From Halomonas sp. 54_146 (lineage in GTDB: Bacteria > Pseudomonadota > Gammaproteobacteria > Pseudomonadales > Halomonadaceae): a stretch of 64,000 nucleotides of DNA. The DNA lies in contig NZ_LGEN01000006.1 of assembly GCF_001507855.1 (NCBI RefSeq), forward strand, positions 1 through 64,000, in the 5' to 3' direction. The notes under the pieces are model-generated. The model was given only the letters and a program-made list of their open reading frames with translations. It did no database searches and had not been told where the DNA came from. How positions within the stretch are numbered: the first letter of the stretch is position 1; each line of letters starts with the position of its first letter. The translations under genes were made by a program, and so were the position numbers. Shown here piece after piece: positions 25,971-28,622 of this stretch.

Positions 25971-27020
25971 TTAACTCCAACGCTCTGCGGCGGTTTTCAG
26001 CAGGTGTTCGGTGGTTTCCCAACCCATACAGGCATCGGTGACCGAGACGCCATAACGCATGGCACCCGGTTTGAGCGGCTGCTTGCCTTCAAATAGATGG
26101 CTTTCCAGCATTAGCGCAACTAAGTTCGCCTCGCCCGCCTGGCGCTGCGCCAATACATCTAGCATCACTTCACTCTGGCGGCGATGATCTTTGCGGGCAT
26201 TAGCATGGCTGCAATCCACCATCAGCCTTGGGTTTTGCCCGGCATTACGCAGTGCATTAGTAGCCGCCCGCACATGCTGGGTCTGGTAGTTGGGCTCACC
26301 GTGACCACCGCGTAGCACTACGTGGGTGTGCGGGTTACCAGCGGTTTGCTGAACCACTGGGTGGCCTTGAGCGTCTATCGCGAAGCGCTGATGGGGGTGG
26401 GCTGCGGCACTCATGGCATCAATGGCCACCTGTACATCGCCACTGGTGGCATTTTTGAAACCTACCGCTGCCGATAAATCACTGGCCAGCTCCCGATGCA
26501 GCTGCGACTCAGTAGTGCGTGCGCCGATGGCCACCCAGCTGAGCAAATCGTCGACGTAGGGGGCAAGCATCGGTTGTAAAAGCTCAGTGGCCACCGGCAG
26601 GCCGCGCGCGGCAACCGCGTGCATCAGCTGACGAGAAAGCGCCAAGCCGCGGGGCATATCACCGCTGCCATCCAAGCCTGGGTCGTAGGCCAGCCCTTTC
26701 CAGCCCACGGTGGTGCGCGGCTTTTCAACGTAAACGCGCATTACCGGCAAAATCCGCTCGCTGATCTCTTCACTGAGCACGGCCAGGCGGTCGGCGTATT
26801 CAAGCGCGGCGTCGGGGTCATCAATGGAGCAAGGGCCAACCACGACCAGCAGACGATCATCGTGGCCGCTTAGGATTTGCTGAACAGCGCTGCGTTGGCG
26901 GGCAATTTGCTCGCTTAACGGGGTATTTAGCGAGACGCGCTGACGAAGTTCAGCGGGGGTAGGCAGCCGGTTGGCCGTGGATGTAGGGCGATTAATAACT
27001 GAGCTGATAGGCGCATTCAT
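25971..27020 (-). CDS. 3-deoxy-7-phosphoheptulonate (DAHP) synthase, class I
   Basis: First enzyme of the shikimate pathway, condensing phosphoenolpyruvate with erythrose 4-phosphate. The 349-residue product has the AroF/G/H signatures: LLVVVGPCSIDDP, MRVYVEKPRTTVGWKGL, AIGARTTESQLHRELAS, VGFKNATSGD, and VDCSHANARKDHRRQ with metal-site Cys/His. The ATG at 27020 is preferred (GGAG 8 nt upstream, family-like MNAPISS); another ATG lies at 27047. Which feedback type (Phe, Tyr or Trp) cannot be fixed by eye. It is preceded by a transcription attenuator with an aromatic leader peptide (27287-27444) and a coupled small ORF (27023-27190). Confidence 0.93.
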   Translation of the reverse strand: MNAPISSVINRPTSTANRLPTPAELRQRVSLNTPLSEQIARQRSAVQQILSGHDDRLLVVVGPCSIDDPDAALEYADRLAVLSEEISERILPVMRVYVEKPRTTVGWKGLAYDPGLDGSGDMPRGLALSRQLMHAVAARGLPVATELLQPMLAPYVDDLLSWVAIGARTTESQLHRELASDLSAAVGFKNATSGDVQVAIDAMSAAAHPHQRFAIDAQGHPVVQQTAGNPHTHVVLRGGHGEPNYQTQHVRAATNALRNAGQNPRLMVDCSHANARKDHRRQSEVMLDVLAQRQAGEANLVALMLESHLFEGKQPLKPGAMRYGVSVTDACMGWETTEHLLKTAAERWS

Positions 27021-27022
27021 GA

Positions 27023-27190
27023 TTAGTTCTCCGCAGTCGTGTGACATCGTATGGCTGTGTGACCACCCAGGTGTACACGGTCGGAGGTGGCAGCTAGCAC
27101 CGACCGTGTGTCGCTAAATCGCCAGCCATAGCAATAGCCTGCAAAGCCGATGGTCGTAGCGATAGCGTTGGTCAGTGCGCGATAAATCAT
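27023..27190 (-). CDS. Small ORF (55 aa) coupled to the DAHP synthase gene
   Basis: A 55-codon ORF with a strong ribosome site (AAGGAG, 7 nt before ATG) whose TAA ends 2 nt before the DAHP synthase ATG; the synthase ribosome site GGAG lies inside its last codons. The peptide has a hydrophobic start and a cluster GFAGYCYGWRF rich in Tyr, Trp and Phe codons, followed by a polar tail. It is located after the attenuator terminator. It could be a second regulatory leader or a coupling ORF; a functional small protein is also possible. I do not recognise homologues. The sequence 27075-27109 within it forms a strong hairpin. Confidence 0.6.
   Translation of the reverse strand: MIYRALTNAIATTIGFAGYCYGWRFSDTRSVLAATSDRVHLGGHTAIRCHTTAEN
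27075..27109. promoter_or_regulatory. 10-bp inverted repeat hairpin before the DAHP synthase start
   Basis: ACACGGTCGG (27075-27084) is perfectly complementary to CCGACCGTGT (27100-27109) across a 15-nt loop. It lies 55-90 nt upstream of the synthase ATG, inside the small ORF. There is no following T run, so it is more likely an RNA control hairpin or a protein-binding dyad than a terminator. Confidence 0.6.
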
Positions 27191-27286
27191 GATGCTGCTC
27201 CTTGATGAATGAATGATGAAAAGTAGCTAATTACACAAAACCCTGTTTCAAAATAGCCAGATCCAAAATAGCCAGGCTCAAAACGC

Positions 27287-27318
27287 CAAAAGCCCCGGCG
27301 GGGTTACCGACCGGGGCT
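27287..27318 (-). terminator. Attenuator terminator of the DAHP synthase leader
   Basis: On the minus strand an 8-bp GC-rich stem AGCCCCGG / CCGGGGCT (arms 27311-27318 and 27291-27298) is followed by TTTTGG and further T stretches. It lies about 50 nt after the leader-peptide stop codon and before the structural gene, as in trp- or phe-type attenuators. Confidence 0.8.
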
Positions 27319-27329
27319 TCTGTGCTTGC

Positions 27330-27390
27330 GGCAGGCAACCTTTGAGGTGTGCCTGGTGGCGCGACGCTAACCGTCTGCCAAGGGCACACC
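27330..27390 (-). promoter_or_regulatory. Alternative leader RNA stems of the aromatic attenuator
   Basis: Minus-strand GGTGTGCC (27390-27383) pairs exactly with GGCACACC (27353-27346), starting about 7 nt after the Trp-Tyr-Trp-Phe codons; inner pairs GGCAG/CTGCC (27379-27375 with 27334-27330) and AGGCA/TGCCT (27354-27350 with 27337-27333) compete. This gives the pause and antiterminator segments expected of a ribosome-controlled attenuator. Folding was judged by eye only. Confidence 0.6.
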
Positions 27391-27444
27391 GTGGCTAAAC
27401 CAATACCAATAGGATGCAGCGCGCGCACCACTGTACTCAGCCAT
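27367..27444 (-). CDS. Aromatic leader peptide (25 aa) of the DAHP synthase attenuator
   Basis: A 25-residue ORF with Tyr-Trp-Tyr-Trp-Phe as residues 12-16, plus an earlier Tyr at residue 4. Five consecutive aromatic codons in so short a peptide, placed directly before a stem-forming region and a rho-independent terminator in front of the shikimate pathway entry gene, identify a regulatory leader. Stalling at Tyr/Trp/Phe codons when charged tRNAs are scarce would favour read-through. The ribosome site is weak. The mix of all three aromatic residues suggests response to more than one amino acid. Confidence 0.85.
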   Translation of the reverse strand: MAEYSGARAASYWYWFSHGVPLADG

Positions 27445-27490
27445 TACAGGCAGAGTCTTTGCAGTAGGTGGGCACGCTTGAGTTTGCATC

Positions 27491-27519
27491 GCTATATCCG
27501 CTTAGTGAAATCTGGTTAA
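27491..27519 (-). promoter_or_regulatory. Candidate promoter of the DAHP synthase leader transcript
   Basis: Minus-strand TTAACC (27519-27514) and TATAGC (27496-27491) are 17 nt apart, each 4 of 6 to consensus, about 50 nt upstream of the leader peptide start. Confidence 0.4.
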
Positions 27520-27656
27520 TGGTGGCATCAGGTGGGTAACATCAGACCTGTTGGAACCCCTGTTGGAGCCGGTGCCGCCGTGGCGCTATGGTTTTATCCT
27601 GCCTGCAAGTGCTGCAAATGGCAAGGCCTCAGTCACCAAAAGCTTGTCGCCAATAC

Positions 27657-27785
27657 CTAGCCGCCAAACGCTTGAATCCAGCCAATGGTGGCAGGCAGTG
27701 CTGACATGCTTACCAACACCACTACGCCTAAAAAAATGGACAAAAAGCCCGATTCGTCTTTATGGTCTGCATCATGATGGGCCAT
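27657..27785 (-). CDS. Small membrane protein (42 aa), His/Asp-rich N terminus
   Basis: A 42-codon ORF with an excellent ribosome site (AAGGAGG, 6 nt before ATG). Residues 1-11 are hydrophilic and rich in His and Asp (MAHHDADHKDE); residues 14-38 form a single hydrophobic helix (FLSIFLGVVVLVSMSALPA...), and the tail ends WIQAFGG. The layout suggests a single-pass inner membrane peptide with a possible metal-binding tip. I do not recognise the family. It lies between the DAHP synthase leader and the flavin reductase gene, on the same strand, and would be missed by gene callers with a length cut-off. Confidence 0.7.
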   Translation of the reverse strand: MAHHDADHKDESGFLSIFLGVVVLVSMSALPATIGWIQAFGG

Positions 27786-27797
27786 GGTAGCCTCCTT

Positions 27798-27856
27798 TTT
27801 ATCAGCGCTATGTCTGTTTATCAGTGCCGTGTCTGGTTTATCAGAGCGGTGTCTAA
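27798..27856. repeat. 19-20 bp degenerate tandem repeat, three copies
   Basis: Units beginning TTTATCAG and ending GTGTCT recur at 27798, 27817 and 27837, between the flavin reductase stop codon and the small membrane ORF's ribosome site. Each copy differs by three or four bases. Confidence 0.8.
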
Positions 27857-27881
27857 GATGTTATAAGTTCAGGCAAATATA

Positions 27882-28622
27882 TTAGAGAGCACGCGGCGCA
27901 TAAGCAAACACATCCGAAAACACCCGCTCCAGTGTTATCCCTTTAGTGTCGAGCACATCAAGGCAGGCGTACACCATGCCCGGAGAGCCTGACAGATAAA
28001 CATCGTGCGTCTCTGGGGTAATGTCGGCAGCTTTCAACACCTGATCAATCCGCCCCAGGTGATGGGTAATCCGCTCGCCGGCGGTTAGTGGCTCTTCTAA
28101 CGGCAATTCAGTCACCGCATGAAAGGCAACATTGGCGTGGGTTTGCGCCCAGTGGCAGGCCAGCTGTTCCAAGTAGAGGTCGCGGTGCTCGCGCGCTGCC
28201 CACCACAGGTCAATGGGTCGCGTCGGCTGGTTTGCCAGCACGGCTTCAATGATCGCTTTCATCTGCGAAAACCCCGTTCCCGCGGCAATCAACAGCAGCG
28301 GCCTTTCGCTCTCGCTATCAAGCACGCACTCACCACCGGGCAAGCGCAGCGTGAGCTGGTTGGCTACCTGCAGCATTTCACGCAGCCGTGCGGAGTTATC
28401 CCGCTCGGGCCAGTGCTGAATATGCAGCTCAATAACGCCCTCGCTGCGGTCTGCACTGGCGATTGAAAACGGCACCCAGGTGGTGTCGTCCAGCTTAAGC
28501 TCTAAATATTGCCCCGGCGCATGCTGCATGGCTTCGGCTCGCCCCGCTAGCGTTACACCAAACACATCGGGGTTTAAGTTCTCAACCTCGGTGACTTGGC
28601 AAGTCAACGTCCTTGCACTCAT
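27882..28622 (-). CDS. NAD(P)H-flavin reductase family protein
   Basis: A 246-residue ferredoxin-reductase-fold protein of the Fre/LuxG group that reduces free flavins with NAD(P)H. It has the FAD/flavin-binding WVPFSIASADR segment, ELHIQ, the nucleotide-binding LLIAAGTGFSQMKAIIEAV, DLWWAAREHRDLYLEQL, and the C-terminal VYLSGSPGMVYACLDVL. No ferredoxin domain is attached. It lies 63 bp downstream of ubiD on the same strand, as fre does in several proteobacteria; Fre can supply reduced flavin for UbiX/UbiD chemistry, which makes the pairing sensible. Confidence 0.88.
   Translation of the reverse strand: MSARTLTCQVTEVENLNPDVFGVTLAGRAEAMQHAPGQYLELKLDDTTWVPFSIASADRSEGVIELHIQHWPERDNSARLREMLQVANQLTLRLPGGECVLDSESERPLLLIAAGTGFSQMKAIIEAVLANQPTRPIDLWWAAREHRDLYLEQLACHWAQTHANVAFHAVTELPLEEPLTAGERITHHLGRIDQVLKAADITPETHDVYLSGSPGMVYACLDVLDTKGITLERVFSDVFAYAPRAL

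Follow-up and report, generated by a model that had tools for sequence, protein, structure and literature searches.

Two leaders precede the DAHP synthase gene of Halomonas and other Pseudomonadales: a probable transcription attenuator and a candidate translational element

Results

Organization of the DAHP synthase locus

The window, the whole 64,000-nucleotide stretch of Halomonas sp. 54_146 DNA analysed here, encodes a class I DAHP synthase on its minus strand. Two leader ORFs precede the gene, and overlapping RNA segments that end in an intrinsic terminator extend from the first of them. Along the minus strand, the features are as follows.

27367..27489, minus strand: leader ORF 1, 40 codons from ATG 27489, a start common to close relatives
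27397..27411, minus strand: aromatic codons TAT TGG TAT TGG TTT (Y W Y W F)
27383..27390, minus strand: segment 1 (GGUGUGCC), within leader ORF 1, partner of segment 2
27358..27379, minus strand: inner hairpin of 1:2, containing the leader ORF 1 stop codon (27369-27367)
27346..27355, minus strand: segment 2 (CAGGCACACC), partner of segment 1 or 3
27330..27340, minus strand: segment 3 (GGUUGCCUGCC), partner of segment 2 or 4
27302..27312, minus strand: segment 4 (GGUCGGUAACC), comprising the inner end of the terminator 5' arm and the terminator loop
27287..27320, minus strand: intrinsic terminator hairpin and short U run, -23.5 kcal/mol
27023..27190, minus strand: leader ORF 2, 55 aa (MIYRAL..GYCYGWRFSDTRS..), with Shine-Dalgarno sequence AAGGAG
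27113..27124, minus strand: leader ORF 2 core TGG CGA TTT AGC (WRFS)
27062..27106, minus strand: predicted H-type pseudoknot (27106-27100 with 27084-27078; 27091-27086 with 27067-27062)
25971..27020, minus strand: DAHP synthase, class I (PF00793, E 6.6e-78)

The DAHP synthase probably starts at ATG 27020 (MNAPI..), with a gap of 2 nt between the stop of leader ORF 2 and this ATG. The predicted fold of the 191-nt leader region is better than that of every one of 200 shuffles (z -3.1). An earlier note on this DNA had described a terminator hairpin followed by a T run; the hairpin is present (27320-27289, -23.5 kcal/mol) and equally stable in 0 of 200 shuffles, but the run is short (UUUU) and weak, and the hairpin is absent from the output of a simple terminator scan. 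No sigma-70-like promoter came up when the minus strand was scanned over 26900-27900, and the two other PF00793 matches in the Halomonas genome lack a comparable leader. A 42-aa hydrophobic ORF (MAHHDADHKDESGFLSIFLG..; 27785-27657, minus strand) with no Pfam match lies just 5' of the leader, and a DUF3087 protein (PF11286; 25946-25380, minus strand) is encoded immediately 3' of the DAHP synthase. Some 2.8 kb 5' of the leader, 31544-30285 (minus strand) is what we take from its sequence to be a Rho-like gene, encoding a transcription terminator.

Distribution of the first leader and its relation to Rfam P15

The window's DAHP synthase, used as a query, yielded 80 named Halomonadaceae loci. Leader and terminator were delimited by script at 77 of the 80 and in the window, and by eye at L040, while the contigs of L076 and L078 stop 33 and 197 bases short of the matched part of DAHP synthase; the attenuator leader is present in every named relative of testable length. 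Absence of the leader ORF and stems from close relatives had been named in advance as grounds for rejecting attenuation, and the alignment of regions upstream of the Halomonadaceae orthologues gives the contrary result, with leader ORF, stems, terminator and gene kept together.

Thirty further loci were drawn from matches to the Rfam family P15 (RF00627, 'Pseudomonas sRNA P15') and are not an unbiased sample; in 30 of these 30 a leader is followed by a same-strand DAHP synthase. Of 34 P15 matches, 33 lie ahead of DAHP synthase (G020 and G047 by coordinates; G015 read). The match in G014, which adjoins tRNA-like sequence and not DAHP synthase, was rejected by eye as false. At E <=0.001, 33 of the order's 292 genomes have a P15 match, and in 15 the match exceeds the Rfam cut-off. 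The window itself scores 25.9 bits (E 0.0013), below the curators' cut-off of 70 bits, and is not listed by a stricter genome-wide P15 search. Because of this low score, its homology to P15 rests on synteny, the shared leader and the ladder of helices described below. Together, these sequence comparisons suggest that P15 is the same DAHP synthase leader and a cis-acting attenuator.

The Rfam listing itself favors another reading, namely that the leader is a free small RNA whose terminated transcript acts in trans, with its position ahead of DAHP synthase being secondary. Terminated leaders that act in trans are known, as with rnTrpL of Sinorhizobium, and a role as small RNA and attenuation in cis are not mutually exclusive. 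A small RNA would nevertheless have no need of a conserved ORF, start, aromatic codons, switch and terminator, nor does it account for the constant association with one gene in 33 of 34 P15 matches, and we consider this explanation improbable.

Our covariance model R1 extends the distribution. At E <=0.001 it has matches in 65 of the 292 genomes searched in the order and in 7 of 232 in the class, a set that includes false matches. The R1 matches that were fetched are mostly weak, and ten weak matches of family f18 were left out of the fetched set; DAHP synthase follows in 12 of 20 and is not nearby in 8. Among new class-level loci, two of four (L207 and L209) precede DAHP synthase and two have none nearby. 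Several loci found in this way have leaders with ends such as FFWWFGYGFYFSQSRGRP, AYWQFGFGYFYFSQEPGCH and GWWFTYFKS before the stop codon. One R1 match without a nearby DAHP synthase, at L216 (G392) near position 965, has an E value of 2.6e-6.

Aromatic codons of leader ORF 1

Leader ORF 1 had been presented as a 25-codon ORF from ATG 27444 (MAEYSGARAASYWYWFSHGVPLADG, then stop). Its frame is correct, as is the aromatic run at Y12 W13 Y14 W15 F16 of that frame, but ATG 27444 appears to be internal; the 40-codon ORF from 27489 is likelier, because close relatives have the upstream start (MQT.., MQR..). An in-frame ATG is found in 108 of 108 delimited leaders, which span 32-73 codons with script-chosen starts, and 76 of the 108 have a Shine-Dalgarno match of at least 4 bases; that of the window is a 3-base match only.

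Trp occurs in all 108 leaders, together with Tyr in 107. In the last ten residues before the switch, 73 of 108 leaders have Trp and Tyr plus a Phe that precedes the final Phe, 34 have Trp and Tyr but no such additional Phe, and one has Trp and Phe. This mixed content makes it likely that leader ORF 1 reads several aromatic amino acids, as the earlier note had supposed from the window's codons. The leader codons also prefer U-ending forms, with TTT at 172 of 226 and TAT at 197 of 229, compared with 53 of 196 and 145 of 460, respectively, in 76 DAHP synthase genes.

The residues around the aromatic run raise the question of nascent-peptide sensing, in which the leader 1 peptide would arrest the ribosome on a free aromatic amino acid, as TnaC does. 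Most leaders do carry YWFS or FYFS, and most Halomonadaceae leaders end in GVPxA. A TnaC-like peptide, however, would be conserved up to its stop independently of codons and RNA, which is not the pattern found. The C-terminal end differs by family (HWRA, RRA, RSSA, QSRGRP, TYFKS), YGYFMTG replaces YWFS in one Halomonas clade, and the GVPxA coding sequence overlaps segment 1 and the inner hairpin. The U-ending codon bias, moreover, would suit reading of charged tRNA. An arrest peptide is thus a very improbable account of leader 1.

A ladder of competing helices

The alternative stems claimed for 27390-27330 are borne out and form part of three competing helices, 1:2, 2:3 and 3:4. Pair counts were made on alignment A1, which holds 52 of 84 Halomonadaceae leaders after removal of near-duplicates; alignment A2 (19 of 24 non-Halomonadaceae leaders) was used for inspection only, with no pair counts, and alignment A4 contains 55 rows picked from A1 and A2. 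In the 52 leaders, helix 1:2 with its inner hairpin has 83.5% of cells paired and doubly changed pairs at 9 of 15, a value reached in 0 of 500 shuffles, and its pair-type count is matched by 47 of 500. Helix 2:3 is 90.9% paired with a covariation score of 0.185 versus 0.121 (0 of 500 shuffles); its doubly changed pairs and pair types are not above shuffles in the same leaders (432 and 370 of 500, respectively). Helix 3:4 is 85.9% paired, with doubly changed pairs at 5 of 11 (4 of 500 shuffles), and one of its pairs, with the 3' side in the terminator loop, is U-A in 39 leaders and C-G in 10. Sliding one partner by 1-3 columns lowers pairing to 13-55% in helices 1:2, 2:3 and 3:4. All three helices therefore show compensatory changes within the Halomonadaceae, and segments 1 and 2 covary across families, one pair being U-A in 35 and C-G in 16 of the 55 rows of A4. 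In another clade of Halomonas, the sequence at the site of the inner hairpin is different and, judged by eye, also able to pair.

A similar ladder of predicted helices is present in other families, in different sequence. Ten loci from families f18, f33 and f34 were read individually, and unbroken helices of at least 6 pairs occur in 10 of 10 for 3:4, 9 of 10 for 2:3 and 8 of 10 for 1:2; examples from distant families are GCCGGG:CCCGGC, GGCAGCC:GGCUGCC and GGCUGCCA:UGGUAGCC. Overlapping helices form a two-step relay at 9 of the ten loci and a three-step relay at 5; of 300 mononucleotide shuffles for each locus, 15-59 show the former and 0-7 the latter. Under the mechanical rule used, L218 has neither relay, and at L212 and L213 (f18) helices 1:2 and 2:3 have just two bases in common, a weak mutual exclusion; the relay test is clear in just part of the distant loci.

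Ribosome-constrained folding and the attenuation model

The predicted energies in the window are -27.9 kcal/mol for 1:2, -12.5 for 2:3, -17.3 for 3:4 and -23.5 for the terminator. Constrained folding was performed on 54 leaders (L055 was lost from 55) with the RNA grown to segment 3, assuming a ribosome footprint of 12 nt ahead of the A site and one base of slack per pair. Across the 54 leaders, the mean probabilities of 1:2 and 2:3 are 0.70 and 0.17 without a ribosome, 0.79 and 0.10 with the ribosome at the Tyr codon, and 0.63 and 0.21 with the ribosome at the Trp codon; P(2:3) exceeds P(1:2) in 11, 5 and 11 of 54 leaders, respectively. With the ribosome at the Phe codon the means are 0.10 and 0.76, and at the stop codon they are 0.00 (zero by construction) and 0.81, the formation of 2:3 being the informative result there. 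Only 6 nt separate the end of the window's Phe codon from segment 1, and in constrained folding a ribosome at this sole Phe codon near segment 1 is predicted to behave like one past it. Because a ribosome on Phe would thus act as a run-on ribosome, the window's leader should be best at reading Tyr and Trp.

The behavior of the Phe codon could also be taken to mean the opposite sign of control, in which a stall at the aromatic codons covers segment 1, 2:3 and the terminator form, and starvation turns the gene off. The Phe-codon ribosome does yield 2:3 (mean P 0.76), which is favored in 48 of 54 leaders. Ribosomes held at Tyr or Trp, in contrast, mostly keep 1:2, with 2:3 favored in only the 5 and 11 of 54 leaders noted above, and a biosynthetic gene that is off during starvation makes little physiological sense. 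We regard this sign as very improbable. Since Tyr- and Trp-held ribosomes mostly keep 1:2 in constrained folding, starvation for Tyr or Trp is predicted to preserve 1:2 and block the terminator.

A leader ORF, competing helices with compensatory changes, a terminator and DAHP synthase that are conserved together uphold the attenuator reading of the earlier note, and a ribosome-mediated transcription attenuator very likely controls the DAHP synthase gene. Sequence comparison shows the ORF with its codons, the overlapping helices, the terminator and the conservation of all of these; from them we infer a promoter, a response in the cell, the sign of that response and a kinetic choice between 3:4 and the terminator. 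Transcription would start upstream of 27489, and the ribosome would translate leader ORF 1. When Tyr- or Trp-tRNA is short, the ribosome would pause at the aromatic codons just 5' of segment 1, 1:2 would remain folded, and segment 3 would be unpaired when segment 4 emerges. Helix 3:4 could then act as an antiterminator across the upper part of the terminator, allowing RNA polymerase to read through into the DAHP synthase gene. When aromatic tRNAs are charged, the ribosome would reach the stop codon inside hairpin 1:2 and melt this helix. With segment 2 then paired to 3, segment 4 would stay unpaired, allowing the terminator to form and end transcription.

Helix choice in attenuators is in general kinetic. 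At equilibrium the terminator is stronger than 3:4, and once segment 4 is transcribed, 3:4 beats 2:3 even with the ribosome at the stop codon. For this reason the choices between 3:4 and the terminator and between 2:3 and 3:4 must be kinetic in the model, and 2:3 would have to hold kinetically against 3:4.

A second leader with a CGA core and a predicted pseudoknot

Between the terminator and the gene, a CGATTT core is found in 102 of 111 upstream regions; nine have no core (L076 is too short to tell). The 12-base core is TGGCGATTTAGC in 86 of the 102. Counted again from amino acids alone, in regions not preselected by CGATTT, Trp-Arg-Phe of ORF 2 occurs in 97 of 111 regions and is spelled TGG CGA TTT in 97 of 97, while CGA is rare in the DAHP synthase genes (106 of 2182 Arg codons). 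Seven more Trp-Arg-Phe matches, spelled TGGCGTTTT, are apparently in the terminator tail, as in the window. Distant second leaders terminate in WRFISGWRY, ARWRYRRF and CWRFYRY. In-frame starts of ORF 2 were not found for L038, L069 and L078, and that of L131 is doubtful.

The motif TTTAGC is common to both leaders of the window, where it lies just upstream of a structured stretch each time (27399-27394 and 27118-27113, minus strand). It is found in 87 of 108 first leaders and in 89 of 102 second-leader cores as listed, and has no obvious pairing partner in either leader.

An H-type pseudoknot is predicted in leader 2 of Halomonadaceae and some others. Its alignment (A3) started from the 102 core regions minus four f38 loci, and a fifth f38 name was excluded as lacking the core; removal of near-duplicates gave 63 regions. 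A filter on the 3' pseudoknot motif removed seven more, six without the pseudoknot and one (L063) able to form it, leaving 56 regions, cut to 78 bases and aligned without gaps. Because the filter required the 3' motif, that motif is partly selected for in A3, and some loci do have the core and no pseudoknot. In the 56 regions, the two crossing helices have 97.8% of cells paired and doubly changed pairs at 4 of 13 (1 of 500 shuffles). A +3 slide control also gives 4 doubly changed pairs, with 9 such cells versus 7 and 12 pair types, but pairs only 46.7% of cells. Mean conservation at third codon positions is 0.92 inside the pseudoknot helices and 0.56 outside, which points to an RNA rather than a protein constraint.

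A model of the leader 2 element (R2) matches 35 of 61 Halomonadaceae genomes and 11 of 244 of the order, with one match per genome; the match lies just upstream of DAHP synthase in 30 of the 35 Halomonadaceae genomes, the 30 that were compared by coordinates. An Rfam search of the window does not list the element. As a genome-wide motif, TGGCGATTTAGC was rejected: it is present in 54 of 145 genomes, but a backward control pattern is common too. Among 30 of its loci that were read, 3 (L141, L161 and L164) precede DAHP synthase and 27 have none nearby. In one locus without it, L157, the motif lies in a frame ending YGWRFSPLG before the stop.

Proximity of ORF 2 to the gene suggests a simpler role, in which ORF 2 merely boosts DAHP synthase translation by termination-reinitiation and senses nothing. 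In many Halomonadaceae, ORF 2 terminates -4 to +7 nt from the estimated start of the gene (L011 -17, L136 +26); in the other families of the set it does so 20-48 nt upstream. Reinitiation at leader genes has been proposed (PMC4833913). This role leaves the fixed TGG-CGA-TTT core, the rare CGA and the pseudoknot unexplained, and does not fit the f19 loci, where the stop is 41-48 nt upstream of the gene; we judge it rather unlikely. A -1 frameshift from ORF 2 into DAHP synthase was considered and rejected, as all three frame relations occur; inspection of the core by eye also gave no X XXY YYZ heptamer. In 85 regions, the mean predicted openness of the gene's Shine-Dalgarno sequence is 0.31 in free RNA, 0.35 with the pseudoknot, 0.20 with a ribosome on its first strand and 0.35 with the ribosome past it. 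Predicted occlusion by a ribosome over the first strand is strong in the window's clade and absent in many others.

The second leader ORF and its predicted structure probably add control or coupling at translation. We tentatively propose that the DAHP synthase of Pseudomonadales is under two stacked leaders, a reversed attenuator followed by a CGA-core/pseudoknot element that acts as a translational attenuator or a ribosome-pause sensor, and hold this full arrangement to be possible rather than probable. In the second leader, the Trp-Arg(CGA)-Phe(UUU) core would meet the H-type pseudoknot just ahead of the ribosome.

Discussion

The first leader offers a concrete, testable regulator for entry into the shikimate pathway in Halomonadaceae, Pseudomonas-like bacteria and other Pseudomonadales families. 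Through its switch, the cell can probably end transcription or let it proceed depending on aromatic amino acid supply, as judged from sequence and folding models. The second leader is an element of RNA and peptide that adjoins the DAHP synthase gene wherever checked.

Among catalogued RNAs, the closest relative is P15 (RF00627), a homologous DAHP synthase leader that codes for ..FGYWFS.. and differs in being listed as an sRNA gene; the type of this Rfam entry may need to change from sRNA to cis-acting attenuator. A passage of PMC2527527 guessed from synteny that P15 is a riboswitch. The main text of a P. aeruginosa 3'-end study contains none of P15, aroF, DAHP, leader peptide, PA1750 or phospho-2-dehydro (PMC8297930). 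TyrR/PhhR of Pseudomonas is described as regulating the catabolism of phenylalanine and tyrosine (PMC5343134). The open-licence literature searched yielded no Pseudomonadales leader family, link between P15 and DAHP synthase, or reversed geometry of this kind.

Leader-peptide attenuation at DAHP synthase is already proposed in other bacteria. The aroF gene of Corynebacterium glutamicum, in another phylum, has a putative attenuator leader peptide with Phe-Tyr-Phe, and the passage on it mentions no helix ladder or second leader (PMC4046766). In Acholeplasma, uORFC-13-1 is a uORF with Phe codon(s) by a terminator before the DAHP synthase gene aroF; its description covers 24 representatives from Acholeplasma and environmental sequences only, and names Phe alone (PMC8632094). 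Attenuators have also been predicted at aroA-tyrA of Vibrio, according to the Merino database as cited in PMC1173090, where the passage gives no leader detail; this is likewise a gammaproteobacterial DAHP synthase operon, but one that includes tyrA.

The sequence features of the attenuator class are found at the first leader: a leader ORF with start and ribosome-binding site, codons for the pathway's products, mutually exclusive helices and a pathway gene downstream. In having a leader ORF with product codons, exclusive helices, a terminator and a biosynthetic gene, it resembles E. coli trp and pheA. The ilv and thr attenuators, too, read several amino acids with one leader, although they belong to other pathways and have the canonical geometry. 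In E. coli trp, the regulatory codons lie within segment 1, and the stalled ribosome covers this segment and frees segment 2. That geometry is not found here, as Tyr and Trp stalls are predicted to keep 1:2 in most leaders. Unlike in trp and pheA, the aromatic codons are 5' of segment 1 and not inside it, and there is an extra helix, the ladder being 1:2, 2:3, 3:4 and terminator. Because the ladder has one more helix than trp, an untranslated leader is predicted to give read-through and not termination, so that loss of leader translation would turn the DAHP synthase gene on, the opposite of trp.
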